NCBI GenBank assembly: GCA_040757595.1
Contig: JBFLWP010000009.1
Coordinates: 74,430 to 138,429, forward strand
Reading direction: 5' to 3'
DNA length: 64,000 bases
DNA from: Nitrospirota bacterium
Lineage (GTDB): Bacteria; Nitrospirota; Nitrospiria; Nitrospirales; Nitrospiraceae
Shown here: piece after piece, positions 31,727-41,506 of the stretch
Numbering within the stretch: the stretch's first letter is position 1
Layout of the letters: every line of letters starts with the position of its first letter
The notes under the pieces: generated by a model
Told to the model about the DNA's origin: nothing
Database searches by the model: none
Seen by the model: only the letters and a program-made list of their open reading frames with translations
Translations under genes and position numbers: made by a program

Positions 31727-31752
31727 TTTCTGCTAGTGCTGTGGGAAGAACT

Positions 31753-33207
31753 ATGAAACCGGAAAGCCGATTCGTGGCGGGGCTGCTGGTGCTCGGCGCG
31801 GCGCTGGTCGCAAGCGCCTGCGCGAGTCCTTTGCATACCGCTGCTGAGCGCGGCGATGTCCAGGCCGTACGCACGCTGCTTGACCAGGGAGCCCAGGTGA
31901 ACGAAGAAGGGGATCCTGGCGACAAATGGCTTCATGCGACGGCCCTGCACTGGGCCGCGGCGAGGGGGCACCTGCAGGTCATGGAGCTGCTACTCGATCG
32001 CGGGGCCGATGTCAACTTCAGGATAGCCCATGACCAGACTCCTCTCCACTGGGCGAGTGGAGCCGGCCAGCTCAAGGCTGTACAGCTCCTGCTCGATCGC
32101 GGCGCGGACGTAAACGCGAAGAATGCGTATGGTGATACCGCGCTGCACGATGCGGCCAAGCACGGGCACGCGCAGGTTGTCCGGCTCTTGCTGGAACGAG
32201 GCGCCATGGCCGGCGACACGAACAGGTATGGGGAGACACCCGCCGCTGTCGCGAAAGGAGAGGGCCACCCGGCCGTGGCCCAGATGCTGGAGCAAGCAGA
32301 GGCGCGTCAGCTTGGAACCGCACCGTTTGTGGCGTCCTCTCCCGAATCGGCCTCGTCCGTCCCTCCAGTTTCAGCCAGGGTTCAGGACAGCGATGTGGAC
32401 CAGCCGCCGGTTGCGGGACGAACCAAGCAGAATCGTTATGCGGTCGTGGTCGGGATCGAGCAGTACCGCACCAAGCTGCCGAAGGCCGACTTCGCCGCTC
32501 AGGACGCCAGGGTCATGGGGGCCTATTTGACGAAGAGCATGGGCTTCTCGGAGGAGAACGTCGCGATCCTGGTGAACGAGAACGCCACGCGCACGGACAT
32601 GGAAAAGTATCTGGAACACTGGCTGCCCAACCGCGTCGAGAAAGACGGCACCGTGTTCGTCTACTATTCCGGGCATGGGGCGCCGAATCCCAAGACCGGC
32701 GACGCCTATCTCGTACCCTATGACGGGGACCCAAGCTTCGTGGAGGCAACCGGCTATCCCTTGAAGCGGCTCTATGAGCAGCTTGGCAAACTGCCGGCCA
32801 AGGAGGTCGTCGTCCTGCTCGATTCCTGCTTTTCCGGCGCCGGCGGCCGGTCCGTGATCGCCAAGGGCATGAGGCCGATGGTGCTTTCGGTCGAGAACCC
32901 GGTGCTGGCCGGCGGGAAAACCGTGGTCCTCGCAGCCAGCAAGGGCGATCAAGTCTCCAGCACCTATGATCAGAAGGGCCACGGGCTGCTCACCTATTTC
33001 TTCCTCAAGGGACTGCGGGGCGAGGCGGACGCGAACAAGGACGGATCGGTGGACCTGGCCGAGGTCTACGAATATCTGAAGCCGCAGGTGGAGCGCACCG
33101 CCAGGCGGGAGTTCAACAACGATCAGACGCCGCAATTGCTCGGCAGCCCCGGCCTGCTGTCCAAGGGCGTCCGCCTAGTCGAGCGCGCCGGTACATCGAA
33201 ACCGTAA
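31753..33207 (+). CDS. Exported ankyrin-repeat / caspase-like (C14) lipoprotein
   Basis: The 484-residue protein has a signal ending in a lipobox-like VASAC (about residue 24), so it is probably anchored outside the cytoplasm. Four ankyrin repeats follow: LHTAAERGDVQAVRTLLDQG, ALHWAAARGHLQVMELLLDR, PLHWASGAGQLKAVQLLLDR and ALHDAAKHGHAQVVRLLLER. After a linker the C14 domain carries catalytic histidine in VYYSGHGAP and cysteine in LLDSCFSGAGGRS, both present. It should be a Lys/Arg-specific orthocaspase-type protease or its relative. The ATG has GGAAG six bases upstream. Substrate and trigger are unknown. Confidence 0.88.
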   Translation: MKPESRFVAGLLVLGAALVASACASPLHTAAERGDVQAVRTLLDQGAQVNEEGDPGDKWLHATALHWAAARGHLQVMELLLDRGADVNFRIAHDQTPLHWASGAGQLKAVQLLLDRGADVNAKNAYGDTALHDAAKHGHAQVVRLLLERGAMAGDTNRYGETPAAVAKGEGHPAVAQMLEQAEARQLGTAPFVASSPESASSVPPVSARVQDSDVDQPPVAGRTKQNRYAVVVGIEQYRTKLPKADFAAQDARVMGAYLTKSMGFSEENVAILVNENATRTDMEKYLEHWLPNRVEKDGTVFVYYSGHGAPNPKTGDAYLVPYDGDPSFVEATGYPLKRLYEQLGKLPAKEVVVLLDSCFSGAGGRSVIAKGMRPMVLSVENPVLAGGKTVVLAASKGDQVSSTYDQKGHGLLTYFFLKGLRGEADANKDGSVDLAEVYEYLKPQVERTARREFNNDQTPQLLGSPGLLSKGVRLVERAGTSKP

Positions 33208-33743: not shown

Positions 33744-35180
33744 ATGAAGACCCTGCTCCTGAACCCGCCCTCGTTCGAGCAATTCGACGGGGGGGCCAGC
33801 GCACGCTACCAGGCGACGCGGGAAGTGCGTTCCTTCTGGTATCCCGTCTGGCTCGCGTACCCGGCCGGCTTGATCAAGGACAGCCGCCTCGTGGACGGGC
33901 CGGCACAGGGGATCACACCCGAGGACACCGTCGCCATCGCGCGCGACTACGAGTTCGTCGTGATCTTCACCAGCACGGCGGGGTTCCGGAGCGACACCCG
34001 CTTGGCCGAAGCGATGAAGGCGGCCAAACCGGACCTGAAAATTGCGTTTGTGGGCCCGCACGTCACGGTCAAGCCGGAGGAGAGCCTAACGGCCTGCCCT
34101 GCGGTGGATTTCGTGGCCCGGCGGGAGTTCGACTATTCGGTCGCCGAGTTCGCCTGGGGCCAGCCGCTGGAGACAATCGCCGGCATCAGCTACCGGAAGG
34201 ACGGGAAGATCGTGCACAACCCGGACCGGCCCGCGATCGAGGATCTGGACGCGCTGCCCTTCGCCGTGGACATCTACAAACGCGACCTGGACCACCGAAA
34301 GTACAACATCCCGTACCTGCTCCACCCCTACGTGTCCTTCTATTCCTCGCGCGGCTGTCCTGCCCTCTGCACCTTCTGCCTGTGGCCGCAGACCATCAGC
34401 GGGCACCCCTGGCGGACCCGCAGCGTGGACAACGTCGTGGCCGAGGTAAAGAAGGCCCTGGCATACTTCCCGGACATCAAGGAGATCTTCTTCGACGACG
34501 ACACGTTCCCCTGGGCCAAGTCCCGGGCGCTGGAGGTCTGCGAGGCCTTCAAGCCGCTGAAGTTCACCTGGTCGTGCAATTCGCGCGTGCACACCGACTA
34601 CGAGACCCTCAAGGCGATGAAGGACGCCGGCTGCCGGCTGCTGGTCGTGGGCTTCGAGTCGGGCGACGACACGATCCTGAACAACATCAAGAAGGGGGCG
34701 ACGACGGCTCAGGCCATCGAGTTCATGAAGAACTGCAAGAGGGCCGGGCTCGTCGTGCACGGAGACTTCCAGATCGGGCTGCCGGGGGAAACCCCCGAGA
34801 CCATCGAGAAGACGATCGAGTTCGCCAAACGGCTGGACCCGGAGACGATCCAGGTCTCGATTTCGCACCCCTACCCGGGCACCGAGTTCGACAGCTACGT
34901 GCGGAAGCACGGGTACATGACCGACGACGAGATGACCGACGAGTGCGGCCACCAGCTGCCCAACATCCACTATCCGGGCCTCGATCGCCGCTACATGGTG
35001 GAGATGGTGGAGCGGTTCTACGAGCGCTATTACTTCCGCCCGAAGGTGATTTTCCGGTTCCTGCGCCGCATGGCCGCCGATTCGTACGAGCGCCGCCGGC
35101 TGCTCTCCGAAGCGCGGGAGTATTTTTCGACGCGAGCCAAGCGGCATCGCTTCGCGCGGACCGAAGAAGTCACCGCCTAA
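33744..35180 (+). CDS. hpnJ: Hopanoid-associated B12-binding radical SAM protein HpnJ
   Basis: The 478-residue protein begins MKTLLLNPPSFEQFDGGASA, and its N-terminal cobalamin-binding-like domain runs to about residue 170. The radical SAM cluster motif is GCPALCTFCLW (CxxxCxxC). From family knowledge HpnJ converts the glucosaminyl head group of bacteriohopanetetrol to the cyclitol ether, after HpnI and HpnK. A TATAGT box at 33677-33682 lies upstream, and GGAGG precedes the ATG. The gene opens the hopanoid side-chain cluster. Confidence 0.88.
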   Translation: MKTLLLNPPSFEQFDGGASARYQATREVRSFWYPVWLAYPAGLIKDSRLVDGPAQGITPEDTVAIARDYEFVVIFTSTAGFRSDTRLAEAMKAAKPDLKIAFVGPHVTVKPEESLTACPAVDFVARREFDYSVAEFAWGQPLETIAGISYRKDGKIVHNPDRPAIEDLDALPFAVDIYKRDLDHRKYNIPYLLHPYVSFYSSRGCPALCTFCLWPQTISGHPWRTRSVDNVVAEVKKALAYFPDIKEIFFDDDTFPWAKSRALEVCEAFKPLKFTWSCNSRVHTDYETLKAMKDAGCRLLVVGFESGDDTILNNIKKGATTAQAIEFMKNCKRAGLVVHGDFQIGLPGETPETIEKTIEFAKRLDPETIQVSISHPYPGTEFDSYVRKHGYMTDDEMTDECGHQLPNIHYPGLDRRYMVEMVERFYERYYFRPKVIFRFLRRMAADSYERRRLLSEAREYFSTRAKRHRFARTEEVTA

Positions 35181-35184
35181 GAAC

Positions 35185-35256
35185 ACAGGCACGAGGCACG
35201 AGCGAGAGGAATTCCTCCCCTGCAAAGTCCCTTGCCCCGTTGCCTCTCGCCCCTAG
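35185..35256. repeat. Unit-built intergenic inverted repeat (GAGGCACGAG type)
   Basis: GGCACGAGGCACGAGCGAGA and GGAATTCC on the left are mirrored by CTTGCCCCGTTGCCTCTCGC on the right. It follows hpnJ directly and separates it from the next membrane-protein gene. Confidence 0.6.
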
Positions 35257-35363
35257 CCGGTAGGCGGCGTGCAGGATTCACCGCGACCGTCCAGGGCCGC
35301 TTCGGCCTCCTCATACAAGGTTCACCAGACCGTTCGGCCTCGTTTCTCGTTTGAGGGAGAGTC

Positions 35364-36212
35364 ATGACGAACAGACGGTCCTTGTCCATCCGATCGAAAG
35401 GTCTTTGGGTTGCCGTGGCCGTTTCCTGGCTGGGGCTGGCTTGGCTGCTCCTGGGGCCCGCGCCGGCCTTCGCCGACGCCGGGCCGCACGAGGCGCACGA
35501 CGCCCATGACGCCGCCGGCCACGGGAGCCAGGCGGACCAGGCGCCGCCAGCCGCCCACGACCACCATGCGGCCGGGGCTCACGAGGAGCCCGTGGACCCC
35601 TCCAAGATCATCGTCCGCGGGGGCATCACGCGGGAGGAGGAGCGGGCCTATTCGCTCTTCATGCACCGCTCCTGCGGCCTGGCCGTGCTCGCGCTCGGAT
35701 TGCTCGTGCTCGCGGACCGGCTGACGCAGCGCCGCTATCCGTTGCTCCGCAAGGGGATGGGGGTGATCTGGTTCCTCATGGGCCTCCACATCTTGTTCAA
35801 CGCGGACCCGACCGATTGGCCGCTGGACGCCACGTTCATGGAGAGCTATAACCGTCCTGGGTCGGGCGAGTGGCTGCAACACAAGCTCCTGTCGCTGGTC
35901 CCGATGGCGGTCGGTCTCTACACGATGCTGGTCGCGCCCAAGCTCAAGGCGAGCCCCTACGCGGGCTATGCCATGGGCGCCGTGCTGGCCGTCGCCGGCG
36001 TGGCGCTCCTGTTCCACGAGCATCAGCACAGCCCCGGCATGGACATGGCGTTGATCGTGAAGCAGCACAACGTCATGGCGCTGACCGCGCTCCTCATCGC
36101 CGCCGGCTGGCTGGCCGACGCCATGGAGCGGCTCGCCTGGAAGCCCAAGCTCTACGTCGTTCCCGTCGGCTTGATCCTGCTCGGCCTGGAGCTGGCCGTG
36201 TACACCGAGTGA
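35364..36212 (+). CDS. Histidine-rich multi-pass membrane protein
   Basis: The 282-residue protein has a signal peptide ending at FADA. A His-rich periplasmic stretch follows (residues about 38-75, with HEAHDAHDAAGHG and HDHHAAGAHEE) and then six hydrophobic helices. The His cluster suggests metal binding, perhaps copper or nickel. It sits between hpnJ and hpnI but has no hopanoid-specific motif, so it may be a guest in the cluster. The start ATG at 35364 gives a complete signal peptide. Confidence 0.65.
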   Translation: MTNRRSLSIRSKGLWVAVAVSWLGLAWLLLGPAPAFADAGPHEAHDAHDAAGHGSQADQAPPAAHDHHAAGAHEEPVDPSKIIVRGGITREEERAYSLFMHRSCGLAVLALGLLVLADRLTQRRYPLLRKGMGVIWFLMGLHILFNADPTDWPLDATFMESYNRPGSGEWLQHKLLSLVPMAVGLYTMLVAPKLKASPYAGYAMGAVLAVAGVALLFHEHQHSPGMDMALIVKQHNVMALTALLIAAGWLADAMERLAWKPKLYVVPVGLILLGLELAVYTE

Positions 36213-36234
36213 TGCGCTGCGCGTAGGAGAACCC

Positions 36235-37404
36235 GTGTCTTCTCTCATGGCCCTGCTGCAGTGGCTTTGCCTGGTCCCCGTGGTCGGGGGGGCCGTCTAC
36301 GGGCTCCTGACCGTCCCGACGGCTCTGCGCTTCCGCCGGAAGGCCATGGCTTCCGCCGCGCCTCCTGCCCGGACTTGGCCGCCGGCGACCGTGCTCAAGC
36401 CGGTCTACGGGCTGGAAAAGAACCTCAGGACCAACCTGCGCAGCTTCTGCCTGCAGGACTACCCGGACTATCAGGTCGTCTTTTCCGCCCAGAGGGACCG
36501 CGATCCGGCCATCCCGCTCCTCTACGAGCTGCAGCGGGAGTTCGGAGCCGGCAGGGTCTCGGTCGTCGTGAAGAGCGTCCAGGCCGGCATGAACGGGAAG
36601 GTCAACAATCTGCTGGGCGGCCTGACCGAAGCCCGCCACGACGTTCTCGTCATCAGCGACAGCGACATCCGGGTCGGGCCCGACTATCTGAAGGCTGTCG
36701 TGGCGCCGCTGGCCGACCCGGCGGTCGGGTGCGTCTGCGCGCCGTTCAAGGCGGTCTGCGCGGACCGCTGGTACGAGAAGCTGGAGCTCCTCAGCATGAA
36801 CGCGGACTTCCTGCCGAGCGTGGTCTTTGCGCTCGCGACCGGAGCCTCGGGCTACAGCAACGGGCAGTCCATCACGATCCGGCGCGAGACCCTCGAGGCG
36901 ATCGGCGGGCTGGAAAGCCTCGGCGACTATCTGGTGGAGGACTACGAGATCGGCCGGCGGATCTGGGAGTCCGGCAAAAAAATGGCCGTGATCCCCTACC
37001 TGCTCGAAGCGACGGTGGATTTGCAGTCCGCCGGCCAGTGGTGGAGCCATCAGGTGTACTGGGATCAGAACACGCGCTTCGCGAGGCCGGGCGGGTTCTT
37101 CGCGACCGTGTTCACCCGATCCGTGCCCTTCGCCCTGCTCTATGCGCTGCTGCGCCTCCTGGACCCGGTCGGCCTCGCGGTTCTGGCCGCCGCCCTGACG
37201 GTGCGGCTCGCGACGGGGGCCCTGGCCCTGGCGGCGTTCGGCGACCGGGAGGGACTGCGCAGCCTGTGGCTGCTGCCCGTGCGCGACGTGCTGGGGCTCG
37301 CGTCCTGGGCGCTGGCGTTCACGCAGCGCACCGTGATCTGGCGCGGGGCGGAGTTCGTGCTGACCCGCAACGGGCGGCTGGTGCCCCGGGAGGCGCGGTC
37401 GTGA
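36235..37404 (+). CDS. hpnI: Hopanoid-associated glycosyltransferase HpnI
   Basis: The 389-residue GT2-type, ceramide-glucosyltransferase-like enzyme has an N-terminal helix, then ATVLKPVYGLEKNLRTNLRS. The donor-binding AGMNGKVNNLLGGL, the metal motif SDSDIRVGPDYL, VEDYEIGRRIW and the acceptor-side QVYWDQNTRF follow. C-terminal membrane helices complete it. HpnI adds an N-acetylglucosamine to bacteriohopanetetrol. GTG 36235 has AGGAG six bases upstream. HpnK, the deacetylase expected to act between HpnI and HpnJ, is absent from this window. Confidence 0.85.
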   Translation: MSSLMALLQWLCLVPVVGGAVYGLLTVPTALRFRRKAMASAAPPARTWPPATVLKPVYGLEKNLRTNLRSFCLQDYPDYQVVFSAQRDRDPAIPLLYELQREFGAGRVSVVVKSVQAGMNGKVNNLLGGLTEARHDVLVISDSDIRVGPDYLKAVVAPLADPAVGCVCAPFKAVCADRWYEKLELLSMNADFLPSVVFALATGASGYSNGQSITIRRETLEAIGGLESLGDYLVEDYEIGRRIWESGKKMAVIPYLLEATVDLQSAGQWWSHQVYWDQNTRFARPGGFFATVFTRSVPFALLYALLRLLDPVGLAVLAAALTVRLATGALALAAFGDREGLRSLWLLPVRDVLGLASWALAFTQRTVIWRGAEFVLTRNGRLVPREARS

Positions 37405-37454
37405 AGACTTTCCTGGAGCTGTTCTGCGGACCAAACGGAACGAGGAGGAAGCTG

Positions 37455-37850
37455 ATGTTTCGCGTCGTTGTGGCTATGATTGTTGCGTCCGCCGCGACCG
37501 CAGCCGGCCAGGTGCTGATCCGCCGCGGGATGCAGGACGTGGGGGCCCTGGAGGCGTACGCGCCCGCGGCTCTGATGTCGTACTTCGGGCAGGCTCTCGC
37601 CAACCCCTACGTGATCCTGGGCACGGTCTTGAACGGGATCTTCTACTTCCTGCTGATCGCCTCGCTCTCCTGGGCGGACGTGACCGTCGCCGTGCCGTTC
37701 ACGGCCATGGAGTACGGGTTCGCCGCGGTGCTGGCGATCACGATCCTGCAGGAGGTCGTTCCGCCGATCCGCTGGGTGGGCATCGTGCTCGTGATCGTCG
37801 GCGTGCTGCTGATCACGATCAGCGGGGAGCCGACCTCCGCGCAGTCGTAG
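37455..37850 (+). CDS. EamA/SMR-type small membrane transporter
   Basis: The 131-residue protein has four hydrophobic helices (VVAMIVASAATAAGQVLI, YVILGTVLNGIFYFLLIASL, VTVAVPFTAMEYGFAAVLAI, IRWVGIVLVIVGVLLITISG). It resembles EmrE/ArnE-type transporters or flippases. GAGGAGG lies six bases before the ATG. In this cluster it could flip a sugar- or polyprenyl-linked intermediate for hopanoid modification, which is inference from context only. A longer in-frame start at 37401 is less likely. Confidence 0.7.
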   Translation: MFRVVVAMIVASAATAAGQVLIRRGMQDVGALEAYAPAALMSYFGQALANPYVILGTVLNGIFYFLLIASLSWADVTVAVPFTAMEYGFAAVLAITILQEVVPPIRWVGIVLVIVGVLLITISGEPTSAQS

Positions 37851-37857
37851 GGCCGCC

Positions 37858-38994
37858 ATGCTGCCGATCAAACCGTTCTACTTCGACGTCACGGAAGCCG
37901 AGATCGCCGAGTTCCAGCAGGAGGCGGCCAAGATCCTGCGTTCCGGCACCCTGATCCTCGGCGATTACACGGCCCGGTTCGAGCGGGCCTTCGCCGAGTA
38001 CGTCGGCACGAAGCACGCGATCGGGGTCAACACGGGCTCGACGGCGCTGGAGATCCTGCTGCGCCTGAAGAAGGTCGAGCAGAAGACGGTGCTGGTCCCG
38101 ACCAACACGAACTTCGCCACCGTGGCCGCCGTCATCCGGGCCGGCGGGGAGGTCCGGTACCTCGACATGGAGAAGCAGACCTTCACCCCCAGCCTGGCCA
38201 TGGTCCGTGAGGCGGTCGAGGGCCGGCGCGCGCGGAAGGGGCCGCCCGTCGCAGGGGTCATGTGGGTGCACATCGGCGGGGTGATCGCGCCGGACTTTCC
38301 GGAGGTCGTGACCTACTGCCGCCGCAAGGGACTCTTCGTCATGGAGGACGCGGCACACGCGCACGGGAGCCGGCTCAAGGGCGTCATGTCCGGCAACCTG
38401 GCGGACGCGGCCGCCTTCTCGTTCTTCCCCACCAAGGTCATGACGACCTTCGAGGGGGGCATGATCACGACGAACAGCGACGAGGAGGACTACCTGGCCC
38501 GGTCGTTCCGGAACCAGGGGAAGCGGGGGATGAACTACGGCGGCCTGCACCATGATTTCGGGAACTCGAGCCGGATCCTGGAGACGAGCGCGGTGCTGGG
38601 CCTGATCCAGCTCCGGAAGCTGCCGGAGATGATCCGGAAGCGCCAACGGGCCTACGACCTCATCACGAAGGAGCTGGACCGGGCCGGGCTCAGCTACGTC
38701 TCCACGAGGCACATGGACGCGGCGAGCCAGTACAAGCTGATCGTCCACGTCCCCGAGGGCCAGCAGACCGAGGCGCTGAAGAAGGCGCTGGCGGGGGACG
38801 GCGTGACGTGCGGCGGCGGGGTCTATGACCTCCCGTGCCACAAGCAGCCGGTGTTCGAAGGCATCTGCGCGGGCGAGGCCTATCCGGGCGCGGACCGCTG
38901 GTGCCCGAACCATCTCTGCCCGCCGCTGACCTCCGGCATGGCGGACGACGAGGCCCGGTACGTCGGCGAAATGCTGGTGAAGCACCTGTCCTGA
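37858..38994 (+). CDS. DegT/DnrJ/EryC1/StrS-family aminotransferase
   Basis: This PLP-dependent sugar aminotransferase of 378 residues begins MLPIKPFYFDVTEAEIAEFQ. It contains GTKHAIGVNTGSTALEILLR, FVMEDAAHAHGSR and the Schiff-base lysine in FSFFPTKVMTTFEGG. Members aminate keto-sugars. It starts eight bases after the SMR gene and precedes an FAD oxidoreductase by eight bases, which argues for one operon. Involvement in making an amino-sugar or aminocyclitol head group is plausible but unproven. Confidence 0.85.
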   Translation: MLPIKPFYFDVTEAEIAEFQQEAAKILRSGTLILGDYTARFERAFAEYVGTKHAIGVNTGSTALEILLRLKKVEQKTVLVPTNTNFATVAAVIRAGGEVRYLDMEKQTFTPSLAMVREAVEGRRARKGPPVAGVMWVHIGGVIAPDFPEVVTYCRRKGLFVMEDAAHAHGSRLKGVMSGNLADAAAFSFFPTKVMTTFEGGMITTNSDEEDYLARSFRNQGKRGMNYGGLHHDFGNSSRILETSAVLGLIQLRKLPEMIRKRQRAYDLITKELDRAGLSYVSTRHMDAASQYKLIVHVPEGQQTEALKKALAGDGVTCGGGVYDLPCHKQPVFEGICAGEAYPGADRWCPNHLCPPLTSGMADDEARYVGEMLVKHLS

Positions 38995-39002
38995 GGAGGC
39001 CC

Positions 39003-40295
39003 ATGGCCGACGGGGAGCGCATACGGGACTTCGCGGTCGTCGGGGGCGGGATCGCCGGGCTGGCGATCGCGGAAATGCTCCAGCGGTCGGGGGCCTCGGT
39101 CATCCTGCTCGAGAAGAACCGGACCCTCTGCTCCGAGGCCTCGGCCGAGCAGCAGGGCTGGTTCCACACCGGCGCCCTTTACACGGCGCTTCCGAGCAAC
39201 TTTTTCTGCCGCACGATGGTCGGGAACCTGGACGACCTCATGGACTACTACAGCGGGTTCCCCGGCATGAACCTGCGGGTGGACAAGCACATCTACACGA
39301 CCGACCGGGACGGCTGGTTCTCCAACCGCACCAACTTCTACGTCTACACGAGCACCGACGGCGTGAGCTGGAAGTGGAAGCTGCCCTGGGCCGTGGCCCT
39401 GTACCGGGCCAAGCGCCGTATGTCCTGGTTCGAGACCCTGGACACGTCGCGGAGCCTGAGCCACCAGATGGGCTTCGGAGCCAAGCCCCTCAAGTACGTC
39501 GTGCACGGCTCGACCCTGGGGGTCAACCTGGAGCACGTGGCCTTCGCGCTCAAGTCCCGCGACCGGGCGATGAACACGCAAAGGATCGCCGAGGACCTCC
39601 TGCGGTCCTTCCTGGCCTGCGGGGGGACGGTCAGGACCCAGGCCAAGGTGCTCAGCCTGGACAGGGGGGCGGTGCTCGCCAAGCTGGAGTCGGGCGAGAT
39701 GCGCATCCCGGCCCGCCATACGATCCTCGCGACCGGCAAGGACACGACGGCCTTCGACGGCACCACGAAGGTCTTCATCAGCCCGCTCTTGGTCGTCTAT
39801 CCCGCGCTCACCGACCTCAACTTCGTGCGGATGTCTCCCCACATGGACCAGACGATCAACCATCTCTGCCACCGGAACGACGGGCTGGAATACTCGCTGA
39901 TCGGGAACGCGGTCTATCACGATTCGCGGCAGGTGGGCCCCGAGGTCCTCGATCGGGTGCGGGCCGGCATGGTGCGCATGGCCCGCAGGGTGTTCGGCGA
40001 CTTCGACGAGAAGGGCGCCGACCTCTTCTTCGGCTACAAAACCGAAGTCTCGTCATCGTCCTTCATCCGGAACTACCTCTACCACATCATCGACCGGGGG
40101 CATTACACGCTCGCGCTCCCGGGCAAGTTCTCCCTCTGCTTCAGCCTGGCCGCGAACGTCTGCCGGCACTTCGGGATCGAACCGGTGAAGGCAATCAGGC
40201 TGGCCGAGCCGCAAGCCGTCGAAGGGCTGATCGAGGAGCCCCTGCACTCCAGGCTCGCGAAGCGCCTCGCCGAAAAGAGCCGGAACCCGTCCTGA
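39003..40295 (+). CDS. FAD-dependent oxidoreductase (DAO-type)
   Basis: This 430-residue protein has the FAD-binding start DFAVVGGGIAGLAIAEML and EKN at the end of the second strand. ATGKDTTAFDG lies in the second nucleotide segment, and the C-terminal FSLCFSLAANVCRHF region is helical. ATG 39003 has GAGG just upstream. It directly follows the aminotransferase and is probably the last gene of the hopanoid-side-chain operon. The substrate, perhaps a hydroxyl to be oxidised before amination, is inferred from context. Confidence 0.75.
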   Translation: MADGERIRDFAVVGGGIAGLAIAEMLQRSGASVILLEKNRTLCSEASAEQQGWFHTGALYTALPSNFFCRTMVGNLDDLMDYYSGFPGMNLRVDKHIYTTDRDGWFSNRTNFYVYTSTDGVSWKWKLPWAVALYRAKRRMSWFETLDTSRSLSHQMGFGAKPLKYVVHGSTLGVNLEHVAFALKSRDRAMNTQRIAEDLLRSFLACGGTVRTQAKVLSLDRGAVLAKLESGEMRIPARHTILATGKDTTAFDGTTKVFISPLLVVYPALTDLNFVRMSPHMDQTINHLCHRNDGLEYSLIGNAVYHDSRQVGPEVLDRVRAGMVRMARRVFGDFDEKGADLFFGYKTEVSSSSFIRNYLYHIIDRGHYTLALPGKFSLCFSLAANVCRHFGIEPVKAIRLAEPQAVEGLIEEPLHSRLAKRLAEKSRNPS

Positions 40296-40396: not shown

Positions 40397-41122
40397 ATGG
40401 CAAAGAGGAGTGCAGCCTTCCGCAACGACGATGTGAGAGAAATGCCCTCCTACGGGATCATGGAGGCTGCCCATTACCTGATTATTCCGCCTACCACCAT
40501 CCGCTGCTGGGTCTCCGGTCGGTATTACCCCAGCAAGGCGGGCGGACAATTCTCCAGCCCGGTCATTCGCCTGCCTGATCCGGGAACGAACCTGCTGTCC
40601 TTCATGAACCTGGTCGAAGTCCACGTCCTCGACGCGATTCGTCGGAAGCACAACATCCCTCTCGAAAAGGTCAGGATCGCGGTCCGCTATCTGTCAAAGG
40701 AATTTCCTTCCAGACATCCTCTGGCCGATCAGGAGTTCGAAACTGATGGGCTGGATCTCTTTGTCAAGAAATTCAGCCAGTTGATCAACGTCTCGCAAGC
40801 CGGACAGCTCGCGGTGCGCGAGGTGCTCCAGGCCCATTTGCAGCGGATCGAAAGAGACCAGGCCGGTATCCCGGTGAAACTCTATCCATTCACCAGGAAG
40901 CGAGATCCCCAGGAGTTGAAGGAAGAGCCCAAGGCCGTCGTAATCGATCCACGTGTTTCCTTCGGCCGACCCGTGCTCGCGGGCACGGGCATCCCGACCG
41001 CCGTGATCGCAGAACGCTACAAGGCGGGCGAATCCGTGGACGATTTAGTGGACGATTATGGACGCCGGCGGCTCGAAATCGAAGAAGCCATCAGGTGCGA
41101 ACTCCACCTCGAAGCCGCCTGA
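40397..41122 (+). CDS. DUF433 protein with N-terminal HTH, VapB45-type antitoxin
   Basis: The 241-residue protein has an N-terminal helix-turn-helix-like region (EAAHYLIIPPTTIRCWVSGR). The C-terminal DUF433 domain reads VVIDPRVSFGRPVLAGTGIP, IAERYKAGESVDDLVDDYGR and LEIEEAIRCEL. DUF433 proteins are the antitoxins of VapC45-like PIN toxins, and the following ORF is such a toxin, though broken. The overlap with the toxin start is large (41058-41122). Confidence 0.75.
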   Translation: MAKRSAAFRNDDVREMPSYGIMEAAHYLIIPPTTIRCWVSGRYYPSKAGGQFSSPVIRLPDPGTNLLSFMNLVEVHVLDAIRRKHNIPLEKVRIAVRYLSKEFPSRHPLADQEFETDGLDLFVKKFSQLINVSQAGQLAVREVLQAHLQRIERDQAGIPVKLYPFTRKRDPQELKEEPKAVVIDPRVSFGRPVLAGTGIPTAVIAERYKAGESVDDLVDDYGRRRLEIEEAIRCELHLEAA

Positions 41123-41506
41123 TCCCCCGTCTTTTTCCTCGATCGGTCACTTGGAAAAAAGCGGATCGCCACCGCCCTCCGCCAAGCCGGCGCCACCGTC
41201 CAGGTCCATGACGACCACTTCTCTCCCGATGCGAAGGACGAGGACTGGTTGTCACAGGTTGGACAAAAGGGATGGAGCGTTCTTACCAAAGACCAGCGCA
41301 TCAGGTATCGTCATCTGGAGCGCACGGCCTTGATGAAAGCGAAGGTAGCGGCTTTTATCTTGACCTCCGGTGATCTTCAGGGTGAGGAAATGGCCCAAAT
41401 CTTCGTGAAGGCGCTTCCGGCCATCACACGATTCCTGAAGAAACACGAGAGACCCTTCATCGCCGGAATCACCAGGAGCGGCTCGGTGCGGATGCTTTTT
41501 CGGTAG
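41058..41506 (+). pseudogene. VapC45-like PIN-related toxin, frameshifted at a C tract
   Basis: From ATG 41058 the frame reads MDAGGSKSKKPSGANSTSKP and PDPP, a natural VapC45-type start, then becomes nonsense. The expected continuation (VFFLDRSLGKKRIATALRQA, VHDDHFSPDAKDEDWLSQVG, WSVLTKDQRIRYRH) lies in another frame and ends at TAG 41504-41506. The switch falls at a run of five C at 41124-41128; a sixth C would restore the protein. In its present form the toxin frame has no usable start codon of its own. Confidence 0.75.

Follow-up and report, generated by a model that had tools for sequence, protein, structure and literature searches.

A hopanoid head-group locus with an aminotransferase–FAD oxidoreductase pair and without HpnK in Nitrospiraceae

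A locus in a 64-kb window (the whole stretch of DNA that was analysed) from a Nitrospirota bacterium (Nitrospiraceae; genome of 3.37 Mb, completeness 100%, contamination 0.89%) carries, in this order, hpnJ, a gene for a His-rich membrane protein, hpnI, a small multidrug resistance (SMR)-type gene, a DegT aminotransferase gene and a DAO-type FAD oxidoreductase gene. We read the same six-gene order in all FAD-carrying Nitrospiraceae genomes found (n = 7; hereafter, the FAD type). The evidence leaves us about evenly divided on whether the locus represents a variant, specific to this lineage, of the HpnI/HpnK/HpnJ hopanoid head-group operon in which oxidation and transamination would supply the amine.

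Locus architecture

The window encodes the following genes:

33744–35180, forward strand: hpnJ, B12-binding radical SAM protein (TIGR03471, PF04055, PF02310); cyclitol-forming step in the known pathway
35364–36212, forward strand: His-rich membrane protein of 282 amino acids, without a Pfam or NCBIfam family
36235–37404, forward strand: hpnI, GT2/GT21-like glycosyltransferase (TIGR03472); GTG start
37455–37850, forward strand: SMR/EamA membrane protein, ArnE-like (PF00892, 34.7 bits); best start ATG 37455
37858–38994, forward strand: DegT/StrS PLP aminotransferase of a divergent subtype (PF01041, 311 bits)
39003–40295, forward strand: DAO-superfamily FAD oxidoreductase (PF01266, 64 bits)

The original prediction, made from the window alone, had recognized hpnJ and hpnI and placed the other four genes between and after them in tight order. 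Both points held up: HpnJ scores 734 bits against a curated cut-off of 577.6 (TIGR03471) and HpnI 327 bits against 310 (TIGR03472), a narrow margin, and the last four genes are separated by 50 (hpnI–smr), 7 (smr–degT) and 8 bases (degT–fad), following gaps of 183 (hpnJ–membrane gene) and 22 bases (membrane gene–hpnI). The fad open reading frame listed from 38835 is over-extended; GAGGAGG precedes ATG 39003. Gene order is kept in the relatives' loci L003–L007 and L064, so the arrangement is not a product of chance, and the His-rich membrane protein is conserved in the same loci; some HpnK-type loci (L055 and L065) likewise have a homologue (37–43%) ahead of hpnI. Recent horizontal gain of degT and fad was rejected on composition, given that their GC3 (0.94–0.95) resembles that of hpnI (0.92).

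HpnK absence and distribution of the FAD gene

The predicted absence of HpnK from the window extends to the whole genome: a search elsewhere, suggested with the original prediction, yielded zero matches to HpnK (TIGR03473) and zero to the YdjC family (PF04794) at E ≤ 1. The presence of hpnK, one of the two results named beforehand as counting against that prediction, was not observed. HpnH (adenosylhopane synthase; E 1.3e-166) is encoded elsewhere in the genome, and two squalene-synthase-family genes were found. The known bacteriohopanetetrol (BHT) cyclitol-ether pathway of Burkholderia and Alphaproteobacteria uses HpnI, HpnK and HpnJ (Schmerk et al. 2015, cited from PMC12583986). The source genome resembles that system in having HpnI and HpnJ in one locus and HpnH elsewhere, and differs in lacking HpnK and adding the SMR, DegT, FAD and membrane genes; the Mycetohabitans locus, for comparison, is hpnI-hpnJ-hpnK without SMR or DegT.

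The FAD gene occurs in 7 of the 148 relatives searched; its carriers are a group of uncultured Nitrospira-related bacteria. All seven also have HpnJ, and in all seven the DegT–FAD pair is linked to hpnJ/hpnI, a result that supports the original prediction on this point. Such FAD–HpnJ co-occurrence has a chance probability of 6e-9 if genomes are assumed to be independent, which they are not. Among the 13 relatives with HpnJ, the two modules exclude each other: seven carry DegT–FAD without HpnK, five carry HpnK without the FAD gene and none carries both; in the remaining genome (G035) the contig ends inside smr, but its HpnI and HpnJ group with those of the FAD clade. The FAD-type genomes all fall into a single clade, and the exclusivity therefore rests on one evolutionary event; the FAD gene was not detected in the phylum outside this clade, and the FAD protein had zero matches on plasmids.

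A phylum-wide rule that every HpnJ genome has either HpnK or the FAD gene was rejected, as it is true only among near relatives; elsewhere in the phylum, HpnJ without a strong HpnK and without the FAD gene is common. HpnI and HpnJ without HpnK, as here, have also been reported for SD1 and SD3 Acidobacteria (PMC5462960), and Leptospirillum apparently has the same combination (PMC7231039). A missing HpnK alone therefore proves little, and its loss does not in itself call for a substitute.

The FAD enzyme is portable, as shown by one homologue at a polysaccharide locus of a Methylomirabilota MAG (L009), in which HpnI was not found; two FAD-carrying MAGs gave no match in the HpnI search. This homologue is the single instance of the association with unrelated polysaccharide loci that had been named as evidence against the original prediction, and DegT genes are frequent in such loci. 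Even so, we consider it very unlikely that the SMR, DegT and FAD genes are polysaccharide or O-antigen genes merely adjoining hpnIJ: their order is fixed in the FAD genomes, with 74–84% identity of DegT and the FAD protein and gaps of only 7–50 bases in the window, the FAD gene never occurs without HpnJ among the 148 relatives and SMR is tied to hpnI/hpnJ throughout the phylum. The L009 homologue leaves the link to hopanoids intact for Nitrospiraceae, where the pair stays with hpnJ/hpnI.

Comparison with HpnK-type loci

The loci of HpnK-type relatives read hpnI-hpnK-(hpnJ)-SMR-DegT-SDR, and those of HpnK-type Nitrospirales (L055, L056, L062 and L063) hpnI-hpnK-(SDR-hpnJ)-SMR-DegT-SDR-LtaS-like sulfatase. 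They have HpnI, often HpnJ, SMR and a DegT in common with the FAD type, and HpnK and SDR where the FAD type has the FAD gene. The aminotransferase and oxidase genes had been called extra; this holds for the FAD gene and for the peculiar DegT subtype, but neither SMR nor a DegT as such is an addition, because HpnK-bearing relatives carry both, with SDR instead of the FAD gene. The DegT of HpnK-type Nitrospirales has approximately 40% identity to that of the FAD type, which falls outside the HpnK-type DegT clade (long branches in the tree). The SDR orthologue is 80–100% identical among HpnK-type genomes and was not found in FAD-type genomes (best matches 34–35%, one 51%, none in G025). The FAD type has thus lost HpnK and SDR, gained the FAD gene and has a very divergent DegT. 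In the f22-type loci, by contrast, hpnJ-hpnI is mostly accompanied by SMR but has no DegT match nearby.

As HpnK-type loci also have a DegT, the aminotransferase need not replace HpnK. The FAD–DegT pair could instead replace SDR–DegT and add a second amine or other modification to a standard head group, with an unlinked, unrelated deacetylase acting or none being needed. We regard this as unlikely, though worth keeping in view: DegT and SDR beside HpnI-HpnK point to a separate function of the DegT–oxidoreductase pair there, and HpnI/HpnJ with neither a strong HpnK nor FAD is widespread, whereas in the clade the loss of HpnK coincides with the gain of FAD and the conserved block contains no deacetylase.

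HpnI, HpnJ and the SMR protein

HpnJ groups with Nitrospirales HpnJ, and the HpnI and HpnJ of the FAD type are sister clades to those of HpnK-type Nitrospirales. A search for specificity residues that would set the HpnI of the FAD type apart found none, with zero type-specific changes at positions conserved elsewhere; HpnJ has two, both conservative. This suggests that the chemistry of HpnI and HpnJ is probably unaltered in the FAD type.

The SMR gene lies near hpnI/hpnJ in most such loci read in the phylum, whatever their type. Its protein resembles ArnE, scoring 22.8 bits against a cut-off of 92 and so falling short of an ArnE/ArnF assignment; it is a probable flippase of the glycolipid, and a drug-efflux reading was rejected on gene linkage and the ArnE-like match. 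In the arn operon, the DegT protein ArnB, the GT2 protein ArnC and the SMR proteins ArnE/F are grouped around an aminosugar lipid. The FAD type has a similar set of GT2, DegT and SMR-type flippase, and differs in adding the radical SAM protein HpnJ and the FAD protein and in its low ArnE score.

This likeness bears on an alternative in which the Nitrospirales HpnI subfamily transfers a different aminosugar, from an NDP-sugar made by DegT and its partner oxidoreductase, to a hopanoid or other lipid, making the set an aminosugar-lipid and not a cyclitol-ether pathway. HpnI barely exceeds its cut-off and has the motif YWDQN where other HpnI proteins have RWxRT, the SMR protein is ArnE-like and solved DegT relatives act mostly on NDP-sugars. 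We nevertheless judge this alternative improbable, given that HpnJ is well above its cut-off, HpnH is present and the HpnI motif is common to the FAD type and HpnK-type Nitrospirales, so that it does not explain the FAD pair.

The DegT–FAD pair

DegT matches the DegT/DnrJ/EryC1/StrS profile and has an invariant catalytic Lys193 (alignment A3), but reaches none of the PseC, ArnB, DesI or WecE equivalog cut-offs (best, PseC, 159 versus 423.5). The FAD protein belongs to the DAO family (PF01266, gathering score 27.9), with a GGGIAG Rossmann motif and a SAEQQGWFHTGALY segment resembling PA4991/GlpO. Its matches to LhgO (30.6; cut-off 299) and GlpO II (30.5; cut-off 460) are below cut-off and N-terminal only, PDB sequence searches returned only N-terminal FAD-motif matches and an AlphaFold2 model (8 sequences) had a mean pLDDT of 35; its designation as a putative alcohol oxidase therefore derives from the N-terminal motif only.

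That the pair could introduce an amino group, as originally predicted, is chemically plausible. GnnA/GnnB is an established oxidoreductase–transaminase pair that aminates UDP-GlcNAc for lipid A (PMC8036547), and by analogy the FAD type may likewise aminate a sugar bound for a lipid; the GnnA orthologue is described as NAD-dependent (PMC8036547), whereas the partner here is a DAO-type FAD protein. Kitasatospora (L164) has a related DegT gene with a DAO-FAD gene, though a different one, immediately upstream. A literature search linking hopanoids with DegT returned only unrelated titles, and one on the hygromycin B cluster returned nothing.

Proposed pathway and implications

The proposed variant of the head-group operon would have inherited its HpnI, HpnJ and SMR protein together with those of HpnK-bearing Nitrospirales, whereas HpnK and the SDR that partners the usual DegT would have been lost, with the FAD oxidoreductase and the distinct DegT in their stead. 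The FAD enzyme would oxidize a sugar hydroxyl to a ketone, on an NDP-sugar or a hopanoid-bound sugar, and DegT would convert the ketone to a free amine by transamination. HpnI would join the sugar to bacteriohopanetetrol, HpnJ would remodel the aminosugar as with glucosaminyl-BHT and the SMR protein would flip the product. The free amine normally unmasked by HpnK would thus arise through oxidation and transamination. More tentatively, FAD oxidoreductase and DegT may make the head-group amine directly, giving an acetyl-free route to lipids of the BHT-glucosamine/cyclitol-ether type. The product could also be a positional isomer, such as one with a 3- or 4-amino sugar, which HpnJ would then contract to a new aminocyclitol.

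Composite hopanoids serve as biomarkers, and hpnI, hpnK and hpnJ are used for predicting cyclitol-ether producers; where a lineage combines HpnI and HpnJ with another amine-forming module, such genome-based prediction would fail. How organisms with hpnIJ manage without hpnK becomes a testable question for the FAD-type lineage. Nitrospira-related bacteria may have a head group that has yet to be described and, if the proposal is true, such a hopanoid would be one not yet described from nitrifier-related bacteria.

Gene content and conservation of the locus

Direct reading and family matches confirmed the predicted gene order: hpnJ, a His-rich membrane gene, hpnI, smr, degT and fad. In profile searches, HpnJ scored far above its curated cut-off (734 versus 578 bits) and HpnI narrowly above (327 versus 310 bits), the SMR protein resembled EamA/ArnE, the DegT protein was a full PF01041 member and the last gene, fad, encoded a DAO-superfamily FAD oxidoreductase. 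Gaps across the last four genes are 50, 7 and 8 bases. A C35 hopanoid base is likely, given two squalene-synthase-family genes and HpnH in the same genome. Upstream, a gene whose product joins ankyrin repeats to a caspase (C14) domain (window 31741–33207) belongs to a conserved block in several relatives (L004, L005 and L064). Downstream, a gene for an HTH_66/DUF433 protein and a short ORF (40397–41400; GC 0.58 versus 0.66 for the window), which look like an inserted toxin–antitoxin-like pair, separate fad from an outer-membrane gene that lies directly 3′ of fad in L004–L006.

When the genomes of 148 relatives were searched in full with the FAD protein as query, 7 carried it. All seven also have HpnJ, in line with the co-occurrence that was originally put forward for testing, and the six-gene order was seen directly in L003–L007 (Nitrospira or Nitrospirota MAGs) and L064. 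Beyond Nitrospiraceae, homologues occur at L008 and L009; one of these adjoins polysaccharide genes. HpnI had no match in either genome (a search without positive control, in possibly partial MAGs).

Absence of HpnK

HpnK, the deacetylase of the known cyclitol-ether pathway, had been noted as missing from the window, and its absence extends to the whole genome: TIGR03473 (HpnK) had no match anywhere in the assembly (rated 100% complete), nor did the YdjC family, even at E = 1. Among the 148 relatives, 11 carry HpnK above its cut-off and 13 carry HpnJ. The HpnJ genomes include five with HpnK (G015, G094, G104, G106 and G140), seven with FAD and none with both; in the thirteenth (G035), hpnJ, the membrane gene, hpnI and smr are followed by the contig end, and its HpnI and HpnJ group within the FAD clade in trees. 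This non-overlap has a probability of 0.005 if genomes are taken as independent, to be read cautiously because the FAD genomes form one clade and the exclusivity is thus one evolutionary event.

Relatives that carry HpnK, whether or not HpnJ is also present, have hpnI, hpnK, (SDR, hpnJ), one or two smr, degT and a second SDR, several with an additional LtaS-like sulfatase and Omp85. SMR and a DegT, originally counted as extras, are therefore part of the usual Nitrospirales cluster; most distant loci read also have an SMR gene near hpnI or hpnJ. In contrast to HpnK-type loci, the window type lacks HpnK and the downstream SDR, has the FAD gene and carries a different DegT. The SDR orthologue (80–100% identity among HpnK-type genomes) was not found in the window's genome (best match, 34%). 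Loci L062 (1749–9974), L063, L159 and L163 couple hpnI–hpnK with SMR, DegT, SDR, LtaS-like sulfatase and Omp85, often without hpnJ, a wider hopanoid head-group system that may be undescribed.

Elsewhere in the phylum, HpnJ commonly occurs with neither FAD nor a strong HpnK match (HpnK was scanned at a strict threshold of 1e-60, which weaker HpnK-like proteins in distant genomes could escape), and hpnI and hpnJ are reported without hpnK in Acidobacteria (PMC5462960), as is hpnIJ, with hpnK unnamed, in Leptospirillum (PMC7231039). HpnK can thus be absent even without an FAD–DegT module, so FAD–DegT may instead replace the SDR–DegT pair. Loci of a distant, probably Leptospirillum-like family (L144–L147 and L158) have hpnJ–hpnI and no HpnK nearby; SMR adjoins hpnI in most, and L145 has a squalene-hopene cyclase-like ORF. 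On a Streptomyces sp. SAT1 plasmid (L165, 4113–8050), consecutive genes encode a glycosyltransferase, radical SAM protein, SDR and DegT. A predicted APH(7'')-Ia resistance gene is close by, and the SDR and DegT are related to their counterparts in HpnK-type loci.

Phylogeny and proposed route

FAD-type HpnI forms a supported clade (99/96) beside HpnK-type HpnI, and FAD-type HpnJ (100/100) is sister to HpnK-type HpnJ (97/98). FAD-type DegT has a long branch and falls outside the HpnK-type DegT clade (96/96); it may have replaced the usual DegT or descend from it by fast divergence. A Kitasatospora DegT, itself encoded after a DAO-FAD gene, joins it (83/94), a link that is only suggestive because the tree program warned of long branches; the two FAD proteins align over the first 54 residues only.

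At positions conserved elsewhere, HpnI has no FAD-type-specific residues and HpnJ has two, both conservative, so both enzymes probably catalyse identical steps in FAD-type and HpnK-type cells. Nitrospirales HpnI (window 36235–37404, compared with L148, L144 and L167) has YWDQN versus RWxRT in other HpnI, which may reflect a different donor or acceptor.

The window DegT keeps its catalytic lysine. The FAD protein carries the dinucleotide-binding GGGIAG, and its SAEQQGWFHTGALY segment aligns with PA4991 and glycerophosphate oxidase, an enzyme that converts a secondary alcohol to a ketone. GnnA/GnnB provide a precedent for paired oxidation and transamination on a lipid-destined sugar (PMC8036547). 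Given these features and the probably unchanged HpnI and HpnJ steps, we favour a route in which the FAD protein would form a ketone, DegT would convert it to an amine (before or after transfer to the hopanoid), HpnI would make the linkage, HpnJ would remodel the product and the SMR protein would flip it. The original observation is confirmed and its interpretation, a modified head group, partly supported; we read the locus as a new variant of the known pathway.
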